The position numbers and the translations under genes are program-made. A stretch of DNA of 35,789 nucleotides from a virus: positions 1 to 35,789 of the IMG/VR virus record IMGVR_UViG_3300032287_002806; one strand, given 5' to 3'. The notes beneath the pieces are model-generated. The model was not told the origin of the DNA. It saw nothing but the letters and a program-made list of their open reading frames with translations, and searched no databases. This document shows, in pieces, positions 1,563-31,511 of this stretch (within the stretch, counting starts at the first letter, position 1; the number at the start of each line of letters is the position of its first letter).

Positions 1563-1734
1563 GGGCACGGAATGGCACACGCAACAACTAGCCAAATGGT
1601 ACGCACACCTAGCAACTCAGCAGGGATGGAGCGAGTACGTCAAGGCTCGATTAATGGAGCTGGAGCCGGAATGGGAAGGGCTGACAGAACTGGCACGGCA
1701 GGAATGGAAGAAGTTAAGGGGGGCAAATGAATGA
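1555..1734 (+). CDS. small hypothetical phage protein, W-rich (59 aa)
   Basis: This frame starts at ATG 1555 inside the end of the 37-residue gene and runs to TGA at 1732-1734. The product is MFKGTEWHTQQLAKWYAHLA then QQGWSEYVKARLMELEPEW, with many tryptophans and charged residues, consistent with a compact helical protein. The phrase QLAKWYAHLATQQGW resembles small proteins seen in early regions of other Burkholderiales phages. The end overlaps the start of the methyltransferase gene, continuing the coupled pattern. Function unknown. Confidence 0.65.
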   Translation: MFKGTEWHTQQLAKWYAHLATQQGWSEYVKARLMELEPEWEGLTELARQEWKKLRGANE

Positions 1735-2638
1735 GCTGGAGCTTTTCGCAGGTGCTGGTGGGGGAATTCTTGGGGGGCAGCTCCTTGGACACCGTACCGT
1801 CTGCGCCGTTGAATATGACGCATACGCCCGATCAGTTCTATTGGCCCGACAAGCCGACAGAACATTCCCGCCTTTCCCGATTTGGGATGACGTCCGAACC
1901 TTTGACGGCAGACCGTGGCGCGGAGTTGTTGACATTGTTTCTGGAGGATTCCCGTGCCAAGACATATCCGTCGCAGGCCGTGGGGATGGATTGGACGGAG
2001 AACGTAGCGGACTCTGGCGGGAAATGGCGCGAATCATTGGCGAGGTACGACCCCGATACGCATTCATTGAAAACAGCCCAGCTCTCGTTAATCGAGGACT
2101 GGACAGGGTGCTCAGTGACCTTGCCGCGCTCGGGTTTGATGCTCGATGGACAGTGCTGGGAGCTGCCGATGTTGGGGCGCATCACCAGAGAGATCGAATC
2201 TGGATTCTTGCCAACTCCCGTAGCAACGGACGCAGGGAGCGGCAGATTCAACACATCGGTGGGGGGCAAACCACGCCCGACGCTGGCGCTGATGGCTCGC
2301 AAGGACTTGTGGCCAACACCAAATGCAATGCTGGCGACAAGCGACCTGAATTTTCAGGTGAGCGGAGACGGAAGGAAGAAACCCAACAAATTGGGGTGGG
2401 CGGTGGCGCAAAAGATGTGGCCTACACCTACAGCGCACAACGCCAAAGAAACCAACGCGCCTTCGGAGGCCCAACGCAATACACCAACACTGGCGGCGCA
2501 AGCTGGTGGTCAACTGAACCCGAATTGGGTCGAACAACTGATGGGATGGCCCATAGGACACACCGACTTAAAGCCATTGGGAACGGACAAGTCCCCCAAT
2601 GCCGTGCAGCAGCCTGGCGAATGCTTGGAGGTGTCTGA
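1727..2638 (+). CDS. C5-cytosine DNA methyltransferase
   Basis: 303 residues. The sequence shows AdoMet motif I (LELFAGAGGGILGG, residues 4-17), catalytic motif IV (GGFPCQDIS with Cys77), motif VI as ENS (115-117), motif VIII (HHQRDRIWIL, 152-161) and a C-terminal motif X (RLKAIGNGQVPQ, GNGQVP at about 285-290). The enzyme should transfer a methyl group to cytosine in a specific DNA site, plausibly shielding phage DNA from host restriction. The stretch between motifs VIII and X, where the target-recognition domain belongs, is short and rich in G, Q, N and R, and a clear motif IX is missing. Exactly this part is overlapped by the conserved-looking half of the second frame. The SD-like purine run at about 1715-1724 serves ATG 1727 and ATG 1731. 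Confidence 0.88.
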   Translation: MNELELFAGAGGGILGGQLLGHRTVCAVEYDAYARSVLLARQADRTFPPFPIWDDVRTFDGRPWRGVVDIVSGGFPCQDISVAGRGDGLDGERSGLWREMARIIGEVRPRYAFIENSPALVNRGLDRVLSDLAALGFDARWTVLGAADVGAHHQRDRIWILANSRSNGRRERQIQHIGGGQTTPDAGADGSQGLVANTKCNAGDKRPEFSGERRRKEETQQIGVGGGAKDVAYTYSAQRQRNQRAFGGPTQYTNTGGASWWSTEPELGRTTDGMAHRTHRLKAIGNGQVPQCRAAAWRMLGGV

Positions 2639-2642
2639 ATGA
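1731..2642 (+). CDS. overlapping-frame phage protein with repeated PTP motifs and LNPNWVEQLMGWP box
   Basis: This frame starts 4 bases after the methyltransferase start and stops 4 bases after its stop, giving a product of the same length (303 aa). Its N-terminus is MSWSFSQVLVGEF. The middle holds YDPDTHSLKTAQLSLIEDW (about 107-125) and LPRSGLMLDG (131-140). The C-terminal half has three spaced motifs FLPTPVATD (159), LWPTPNA (193) and MWPTPTAHN (229), then LNPNWVEQLMGWP (262-274). I recall this arrangement from phage proteins of unknown function, which supports real coding. A 303-codon open frame wholly inside another gene is itself unlikely by chance. Function is unknown; a link to DNA modification is inference from the overlap. 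It could be a conserved shadow frame. Confidence 0.6.
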   Translation: MSWSFSQVLVGEFLGGSSLDTVPSAPLNMTHTPDQFYWPDKPTEHSRLSRFGMTSEPLTADRGAELLTLFLEDSRAKTYPSQAVGMDWTENVADSGGKWRESLARYDPDTHSLKTAQLSLIEDWTGCSVTLPRSGLMLDGQCWELPMLGRITREIESGFLPTPVATDAGSGRFNTSVGGKPRPTLALMARKDLWPTPNAMLATSDLNFQVSGDGRKKPNKLGWAVAQKMWPTPTAHNAKETNAPSEAQRNTPTLAAQAGGQLNPNWVEQLMGWPIGHTDLKPLGTDKSPNAVQQPGECLEVSE

Positions 2643-3362: not shown

Positions 3363-3973
3363 AGCGCTCTCTCTGTCCCCACTGCCGCAAGCGCCTAGAA
3401 GAAGGCCAGCGCATCCACCCTGGCTGCATAGACGGTTACGCAACTGCCCAAGCCGCAAAGCTAGAGCGCGAGGAATGGAAGCGCAGCCGCGAAGCAATCA
3501 GGGCTGAGAAGGCCGAAGACCGTAAGAAGCGTGTAGCCATGAAAAGCCGCGCCGATTGGCTGGCCGAGGCCAAGAAGCTACTCCAACGCCGCCGCCGCCT
3601 TGAAGAACTGGCAAAGGGCAAGGGCTGCATGAGCTGTGGCCGCAGTCAATCCGAGGTCATGGGGACTGACGGATGGAAGCCAGGAGGCGCGTGGGATGGC
3701 GGGCACTTCATGAGCAAGGGTGCACGGCCTGAACTAGCCCTAGAGCCACTGAACATTTGGCTGCAATGCAAGTCCTGCAACGGCGGGTCAGGCAAGTACG
3801 CACGCAAGGGCTACACGGTGGGCGTGAGCTTTGAAGCGAATTTGAGGGCAGAACAGGGTGACGCGCTGGTGGACTGGCTCAAAGGTCCGCACGACCTCAA
3901 GCATTACAGCGTGGATGACCTGATCGCCATTTGTGCAAGCGAGAAATTGAAATTGAAGGAGCTACAGCAATGA
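3359..3973 (+). CDS. ninG: NinG/Rap recombination endonuclease
   Basis: 204 residues, the same length as lambda NinG. The N-terminus carries a CPHC pair (6-9) with a nearby C23, then a long basic coiled region (about 30-80, rich in K, R, E). The C-terminal half has CMSCGRS, a GGHFMSKGARPELALEPLNIW segment and CKSCNGG, which together form the HNH-like zinc-coordinated core of the family. NinG/Rap cleaves branched recombination intermediates such as Holliday junctions and D-loops. It is coupled to ninB through one small gene, so the products should act on ERF-made intermediates. Confidence 0.93.
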   Translation: MKRSLCPHCRKRLEEGQRIHPGCIDGYATAQAAKLEREEWKRSREAIRAEKAEDRKKRVAMKSRADWLAEAKKLLQRRRRLEELAKGKGCMSCGRSQSEVMGTDGWKPGGAWDGGHFMSKGARPELALEPLNIWLQCKSCNGGSGKYARKGYTVGVSFEANLRAEQGDALVDWLKGPHDLKHYSVDDLIAICASEKLKLKELQQ

Positions 3974-31013: not shown

Positions 31014-31511
31014 TCACTTAATCGTCAGGCGGTCTTTGCGCACGATTCGCGCACCTTGCACGGCCTCACCGGCCAGGATTGCGGCTCTGATCTTTGTCTT
31101 GCTTGGTGCTGGTGGCTTGGGGTCACTCAGTAGGGCAGGGGGGAAGGTTGCCCCTGCTTCAATCTCTACCGACTCGTCACGGTCTGGGTACAGCTTCACA
31201 ATGAATGAACCGTCTGTAGCCTTCAGTTCACTGATTCCGCTAGCCTTCATGTTCTCGGCCAGATATTCCCTAATGCGCTCCGCTTTGCGCTCTAGAGAGA
31301 TTTGCAGCAGCTTGATGCGCTCAATCGCTTGCCTTGCTTGCTGTGCGTCTGCTTCACAGTTCAGAACGTAAGCGGCTACTTGATTAGCCTTGCTGCTCCA
31401 CAGTGCGCGGCATTGTTCAAACGCTGGCAGTGCTTCGCCTGTCTCTGGGTCAAATGCGTTGTCCAGTGATTGGCGCAGATCGTCGGTGAGTTGGTAGAGA
31501 CTGATATTCAT
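31014..31511 (-). CDS. siphovirus Gp157-family protein
   Basis: 165 residues from ATG 31511. The pattern SLYQLTDDLRQSLDNAFDPE, then a long helix with ADAQQARQAIERIKLLQISL and ERKAERIREYLAENMKASGI, and a beta part SFIVKLYPDRDESVEIE is the Gp157 family. The family was named from a streptococcal phage protein linked to phage-resistance phenotypes and is found in recombination clusters beside ERF and SSB, as here. It is bracketed by two short hairpins, which may set its expression apart from its neighbours. Confidence 0.87.
   Translation of the reverse strand: MNISLYQLTDDLRQSLDNAFDPETGEALPAFEQCRALWSSKANQVAAYVLNCEADAQQARQAIERIKLLQISLERKAERIREYLAENMKASGISELKATDGSFIVKLYPDRDESVEIEAGATFPPALLSDPKPPAPSKTKIRAAILAGEAVQGARIVRKDRLTIK

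Follow-up and report, generated by a model that had tools for sequence, protein, structure and literature searches.

A phage C5-cytosine DNA methyltransferase probably encoded as two polypeptides by completely overlapping reading frames

Introduction

Two open reading frames of identical length that cover almost exactly the same DNA raise the question of whether both encode proteins and, if so, how the two products relate to each other. Such a pair lies near the start of the viral record IMGVR_UViG_3300032287_002806, which was analysed over its whole stretch of 35,789 nucleotides, here called the window. Frame 1 (alpha) runs from an ATG at 1727 to a stop codon at 2636-2638 and frame 2 (beta) from an ATG at 1731 to a stop codon at 2640-2642, so the two co-extensive frames of 303 codons with starts and stops 4 nucleotides apart are present where the original prediction had placed them. 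That prediction described frame 1 as a C5 methyltransferase and frame 2 as a truly dual-coded protein that might act as its partner or supply its specificity.

Precedents exist for parts of this arrangement. The multispecific C5-methyltransferases of Bacillus phages are single chains. For the methyltransferase M.EcoHK31I, Lee, Kam and Shaw reportedly described in 1995 a small gene that lies inside the large one in another frame, and to our knowledge few relatives of such a two-frame methyltransferase have been studied. Split C5 methyltransferases are active, as exemplified by M.AquI, M.EcoHK31I and fragments of M.SssI, and in M.EcoHK31I the large subunit carries motifs I-VIII and X together with a predicted target recognition domain (TRD), while the small subunit carries motif IX (PMC3404938). 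In the Bacillus phage enzymes of SPR, phi3T, rho11 and H2, tandem TRDs between motifs VIII and IX lead to multiple targets (PMC8936443).

Results

Table 1 Features of the overlapping alpha/beta locus in the window.
Feature	Position	Strand	Description and basis
Shared Shine-Dalgarno-like stretch, around AAGGGGGG	1709..1723	+	Upstream of both start codons
alpha (frame 1)	1727..2638	+	C5-cytosine methyltransferase, predicted catalytic subunit; motifs I-VIII and X, Cys77; 303 aa
alpha motif IV (GFPCQDIS region), catalytic Cys77 codon at 1955-1957	1943..1966	+	Alignment to M.HhaI; PCQ invariant in alignment A6
alpha linker, residues 166-268, through module DNA	2222..2530	+	Mostly predicted disordered; pLDDT <50 for residues 179-259
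alpha motif X (THRLKAIGNGQVPQCRAAAWRML)	2558..2632	+	GN invariant; AF2 helices 274-285 and 290-301
beta (frame 2)	1731..2642	+	Probable overprinted specificity subunit, +1 frame, 303 aa; phrog_1008, open +1 frame, synonymous-site constraint
beta N-terminal conserved module, aa 95-159, KWRESLARYDPD...KTAQLSL...TLPRSGLMLDG...ESGF	2013..2207	+	Overlaps alpha motifs VI-VIII
beta module 1 (LPTPVATDAGSGRFNTSVGGKPRPTLALMARKDL)	2208..2309	+	Cluster 10; also in L003, L004, L005, L013
beta module 2 (WPTPNAMLATSDLNFQVSGDGRKKPNKLGWAVAQKM)	2310..2417	+	Similar module in Escherichia phage K1ind2; replaced in L003, L004, L005
beta module 3 (WPTPTAHNAKETNAPSEAQRNTPTLAAQAGGQ)	2418..2513	+	Cluster 0; replaced in L003, kept in L004 and L005
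beta putative motif-IX element LNPNWVEQLMGWPIGHTDL	2514..2573	+	P, E, M invariant in 107 betas; alpha third-base bias 1.5-2.1 bits here

Alpha matched the Pfam family PF00145 (DNA_methylase) over residues 1-170 (2.5e-32) and phrog_363 over residues 1-300 (4e-70). It possesses the features of a C5-cytosine methyltransferase, namely motif I, PCQ (IV), ENx (VI), RxR (VIII), GN(A/G)xxP (X) and a SAM-dependent fold, and the residues P76, C77, Q78, N116, R155, R157 and G285 are invariant; the profile matches and motifs I, IV (with Cys77), VI, VIII and X bear out the assignment of frame 1 to this family. In an AF2 model, pLDDT exceeded 90 for most of residues 1-165 and residues 280-300 were also modelled confidently, while most of residues 179-270 were disordered; the model aligned to M.HhaI with a VIA-align Z of 24 (192/327 residues aligned). 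On the basis of this model and alignment, alpha is predicted to consist of the large domain plus motif X, without the small domain. We found neither a TRD nor a motif IX in the alpha chain, with no small domain and no IX-like motif in frame 1. This agrees with the anticipated absence of a TRD between motifs VIII and X, and the unconstrained, low-complexity appearance of this region can be explained by its being a read-through linker.

Judged from the window alone, the second open frame is only moderately unlikely (P = 0.014, with 2.9 stops expected after shuffling of the synonymous codons of frame 1), and the case for dual coding therefore rests on relatives. We gathered about 300 loci by searching viral contigs, species genomes and phage records; these counts are of loci rather than of independent lineages, and a few loci were fetched twice from one contig. 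In 185 of the 186 loci of the first set, the match to beta lay in the +1 frame of alpha on common DNA, and across 142 dereplicated loci the same shuffling gave a median P of 0.001, with 80% of the loci below 0.01, so that the openness of the second frame across relatives is beyond chance. A sequencing frameshift in the window was considered and rejected, as neither frame is interrupted over its 303 codons and the same organisation is seen again in hundreds of loci as well as in finished phage genomes.

The relatives also permitted a view of selection on both frames, for which the third base at four-fold degenerate alpha codons was compared with the codon usage of each locus. Among 108 dereplicated loci in which the open frame of beta reaches back to the alpha start, the bias amounted to 0.6-0.7 bits over alpha codons 1-70, 0.3-0.4 over codons 71-100, 0.7-0.95 over codons 101-145 and about 0.95 at motifs IX/X, and the third base of alpha residue 271 was T in 98/98 loci. 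Relatedness alone does not produce this signal, because the conserved alpha residues P109, A151 and H152 showed 0.01-0.07 bits in the same 108 loci. In 14 loci with a late beta start, the bias was 0.04-0.06 bits over alpha codons 1-55 and 0.3-0.7 after the start of beta. Between close pairs, third-position changes made up 0.62 of all changes in flanking control genes, 0.49 in codons 101-165 and 0.40 at IX/X, and there was little suppression over codons 1-100, so the N-terminus of beta is constrained more mildly than its core. The strongest synonymous-site constraint in the 5′ half (KL 0.7-0.95 bits per site) fell on the DNA of beta residues 95-159, for which two hairpins were predicted with pLDDT of about 70-80. 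Synonymous-site suppression, which had been proposed as a check, is thus evident as strong bias at alpha four-fold sites where beta is read and no bias where it is not, and together with the open +1 frame of the relatives it substantiates true dual coding. The proposed split of constraint, with frame 1 selected in the 5′ half and frame 2 in the 3′ half, stands for the module stretch, where frame 1 is merely an open linker, but not for the 5′ half and the IX/X region, where both frames are constrained in the clade of the window.

Beta matched phrog_1008 (4.8e-31, beta residues 62-280, profile positions 33-281), a family that also matched gp56 of Paenibacillus phage Shelly (8e-74) and the beta of L177, including its motif X (2.5e-35). 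Searches of Pfam, NCBIfam and PDB with beta returned nothing meaningful, and its AF2 fold, modelled from 107 sequences, had a mean pLDDT of 57.6 and no PDB match at E <= 0.001. The function of this family had been thought unassigned, but PHROGs labels phrog_1008 as 'DNA methyltransferase'. In the window, three ~30-aa 'PTP' modules begin in beta at the end of alpha's motif VIII and are followed by LNPNWVEQLMGWP, after which comes motif X of alpha. We consider LNPNWVEQLMGWP a candidate motif IX on account of its position and its L.P......MG.P pattern rather than of a profile match; when the IX-X segment was used for profile searches of Pfam and PDB to link LNPxWVExLMGxP to canonical motif IX, no canonical enzymes were found. 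The element lies in the +1 frame of alpha in 291 of 300 loci (X in alpha in 278, X in beta in 10, no near X in 3), and where beta carries X too, it sits between the modules and X in one frame. Beta carries both the modules and the motif-IX element that are missing from alpha, which supports the suggestion that it is a partner of the methyltransferase or supplies its specificity.

No intact stand-alone beta was found among the ~300 loci. Stand-alone homologues had been put forward as a test of the second frame, and although none came to light intact, the test appears to be the wrong one, since beta would be the other half of alpha's enzyme and is expected to sit with it. One locus (L189:3001-3690) contains the C-terminal half of a beta, with modules, IX and X, without an alpha, which we read as a remnant; the ORF upstream is tyrosine recombinase-like and may have replaced the 5′ part. 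In two further loci (L158:2278-3642 and L105), a sequence resembling an HNH endonuclease (HHIDQD...NIQTLCK.CH) adjoins the motif-IX element and looks like a homing insertion between IX and X, through which the alpha frame of L158 is open. In L007:2497-3723, alpha has about 100 additional codons, its linker peptides are similar to those of L158, and the beta IX element occurs twice (before 3238 and at 3596-3712), suggesting an L158-like insertion with a duplicated site. L105, L193, L196 and L269 possibly contain single-base indels, and none of our conclusions depends on them.

Cutting 298 betas at the PTP motif yielded 809 modules, 0-7 per beta and mostly 1-4, with many recurring types, whose numbers are approximate because some types are fused by single-linkage clustering and because the cutting also produced a few units from sequence that precedes the first module. 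For instance, WPTPTVCGNHNRKGAS... and its variants were found in 56 loci. A module type was shared by 16% of the pairs at 20-40% alpha identity versus 26% at 70-80%, and even at 90-97% alpha identity just 11% of the pairs had the same module string; module sharing depends weakly on alpha divergence. Between the window and L003, identity is 95-100% over 1741-2280, drops to 0.39-0.75 over 2281-2520 (modules 2 and 3, for most of which it is about 0.4-0.6) and rises again to 0.88-0.97 over 2521-2640. Module 2 of the window shares 59% identity over 46 residues with the module of K1ind2, a phage whose alpha looks very different. Judging from these comparisons, the beta modules are recurring cassettes that are swapped between loci, as is known for the tandem TRDs of Bacillus phage enzymes (PMC8936443), and the locus has tandem exchangeable units between motifs VIII and IX, as multispecific methyltransferases do.

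The position of motif X provides a natural experiment. When motif X is in alpha, the module stretch is free of stops in the alpha frame in 250 of 253 loci, compared with 17.7 expected after synonymous shuffling of the beta codons. When it is in beta, none of ten loci (L141, L177, L187, L188, L190, L192, L248, L295, L299 and L082) is stop-free in the alpha frame, and the mean number of stops is 7.5 versus 8.2 expected. If alpha needs motif X in cis, its frame must stay open through DNA that carries the message of beta. In three of the ten, from Paraburkholderia (L141), Alicyclobacillus (L177) and mycobacteriophage Cici (L299, genes 76 and 75), alpha ends right after motif VIII. Two loci (L193 and L196) show motifs I-VIII, modules, IX and X in one frame; both are metagenomic viral contigs in which a one-base error could explain the single-frame order. 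In a tree of the alpha N-domain, the X-in-beta and single-frame forms are scattered among the overlapping ones, and for this reason parts of the enzyme seem to have moved between frames repeatedly. In L299 (Mycobacterium phage Cici 45971-47066), two neighbouring genes annotated as 'DNA methylase' resemble the alpha (I-VIII) and beta (modules-IX-X) parts of one enzyme and overlap by only 23 nt; such a gene pair is annotated likewise in many mycobacteriophages.

With regard to expression, GGAG, GAGG or AGGA occurred at -13 to -2 in 66 of 93 double-start relatives versus 5-15 of 93 in windows further upstream, which supports the idea of one ribosome site serving both ATGs. The beta ATG is located at +4 from the alpha start in 94/108 loci, as xTGAATG in most relatives of the clade of the window, and we infer that beta is translated. 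In about ten loci, including L019, L022 and L036, the alpha start is lost and the beta ATG kept (e.g., TTAAATG); in L019 and L022 an in-frame start a few codons further upstream may serve alpha.

Among the immediate neighbours of the locus that were tested, no restriction gene or endonuclease partner was recognised. The neighbours include relatives of NinB and NinG in a nin-like region, and the genome also contains terminase, portal and integrase genes. Alpha and beta look like an orphan methyltransferase of a temperate tailed phage, which would most likely guard phage DNA from host restriction. The same genome encodes a Mu Gam-like end-protection protein on the minus strand (31014-31511). In Salmonella phage S9-5 (L018, 907-1500), an annotated adenine methylase gene lies directly upstream and overlaps the alpha/beta pair by 4 nt; this phage may carry two kinds of methylation.

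The alpha/beta overlap is ancient and widespread in phages and prophages of many phyla. Genome matches were labelled as Pseudomonadota, Bacillota, Actinomycetota, Myxococcota, Spirochaetota, Planctomycetota, Verrucomicrobiota, Nitrospirota, Chloroflexota, Bacteroidota and one archaeal MAG, with the MAG phylum labels possibly including binning errors. Both genes are already annotated as overlapping in Paenibacillus phage Shelly (g55/g56) and Escherichia phage K1ind2 (ORF29/ORF28), and in the Vibrio and Pseudomonas phage records examined the beta frame alone is annotated, as a hypothetical protein. In the open-access literature, we found no paper on the alpha/beta overlap.

Discussion

Beyond the dual coding, the division of the motifs, the natural rearrangements of the two halves and the exchange of module cassettes documented here, the locus very probably encodes a single orphan phage C5-cytosine DNA methyltransferase made as two polypeptides from overlapping frames, with beta as a detachable and probably multispecific specificity subunit. 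Alpha would provide SAM binding and the catalytic cysteine through motifs I-VIII and X, its stretch between VIII and X serving as a linker through foreign-frame DNA. Beta, in which a short N-terminal element is followed by a series of exchangeable ~30-aa PTP modules and then by the putative motif-IX element, would form the target-recognising small domain. Starting at ATGs 4 nt apart behind one Shine-Dalgarno sequence, the subunits would pair into a heterodimer and methylate phage DNA, presumably as a defence against host restriction. In this heterodimer, beta would bind alpha and determine the target, and each module may have a target of its own.

Other explanations have to be weighed against this one. 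Programmed frameshifting, with ribosomes entering frame 2 from frame 1 once motif VIII has been read and returning ahead of X, would yield one full-length chain and no separate frame-2 protein. It would account for the change of frame exactly at the end of motif VIII and again before X, the X-in-beta loci would need one +1 shift, and L193 and L196 show the one-chain order. The main form, however, would require ribosomes to shift twice, in opposite directions; beta has an ATG of its own at +4 (94/108 loci) with a Shine-Dalgarno sequence; and already upstream of the supposed shift point the beta frame is open and under constraint. Moreover, no conserved slippery site is visible, because the alpha four-fold sites near the end of motif VIII (H152, A151 and G150) are unbiased (0.01-0.19 bits), and we regard frameshifting as very unlikely. 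It is scarcely credible that frame 2 is untranslated and its conservation a passive echo of frame 1 plus constraint at the nucleotide level: the similarity of the 5′ half of beta does track that of alpha, and beta is absent from Pfam, but wherever beta is read the third bases of alpha are fixed (T in 98/98 loci at residue 271, for example), whereas they vary freely in the same region of alpha when beta is not open, tandem loci keep beta open while alpha is full of stops, and the modules are conserved as protein cassettes in the beta frame.

Beta might also be a functionally separate overprinted protein, anti-restriction or regulatory for example, next to an alpha that works alone with a TRD between its own motifs VIII and X, as could be argued from the TRD predicted in the large subunit of M.EcoHK31I (PMC3404938). 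Against this, the VIII-X stretch of alpha is predicted to be disordered and is gone altogether in L141, L177 and L299, where X is in beta, and in the X-in-beta loci the IX-like element stands between modules and X in one frame, which makes a separate function of beta highly improbable. A two-polypeptide methyltransferase with beta as its specificity subunit is the reading that we compare with known systems below.

M.EcoHK31I, a two-polypeptide C5-methyltransferase for YGGCCR that we compared by its description, shares the split of motifs I-VIII and X from motif IX, and in the window the IX-like element, assigned by position and pattern, is likewise in frame 2 alone and X in frame 1. However, the TRD of M.EcoHK31I is predicted in its large subunit, whereas the whole variable region of this locus is in beta and alpha there is a linker predicted to be mostly disordered; M.EcoHK31I is part of a restriction-modification system, whereas the window has no recognised endonuclease partner nearby; and the ORFs of the window are co-extensive, with beta a modular array. 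The alpha/beta enzyme M.AquI (CYCGRG) is similarly split after motif VIII, and the tandem relatives share with it the location of IX-X in beta; this division into I-VIII and IX-X is found in L141, L177, L299 and seven others but not in the window, where alpha retains X and the overlap of the two genes is complete. Like the multispecific C5-methyltransferases of Bacillus phages, the locus has exchangeable tandem recognition units between VIII and IX, but its array is a separate +1-frame protein with 0-7 modules per beta across the relatives. The pairs in Shelly (g55/g56) and K1ind2 (ORF29/ORF28) and phrog_363/phrog_1008 are the identical two families in the identical overlap, although the relation of the products is not stated there beyond 'internal gene', 'Mte8-like' or 'DNA methyltransferase'. 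Thus, the split C5 methyltransferase itself is already known from M.EcoHK31I and M.AquI, and new here are the complete overlap, a beta that contains the entire TRD, the array of modules and the wide distribution of the family.

A broader claim, which we hold with even confidence for and against, is that of a widespread class of phage methyltransferases in which a detachable array of standardised cassettes from a shared pool, each reading its own target, is overprinted on the catalytic subunit, with the catalytic frame reading through every cassette out of frame.

The two-frame split methyltransferase, until now a curiosity of one or two restriction systems, would become a large family of phages and prophages in many phyla. 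Half of the enzyme is missing from several phage annotations because the records annotate one of the two frames. The family offers a clean natural test of dual coding, with stops following motif X when X changes frame, and it brings to light a large stock of recognition modules that can be exchanged. Should each module set a target, a table assigning sequences to modules could be derived by matching module strings to phage methylomes, and the family would provide a naturally split, re-targetable C5 methyltransferase.
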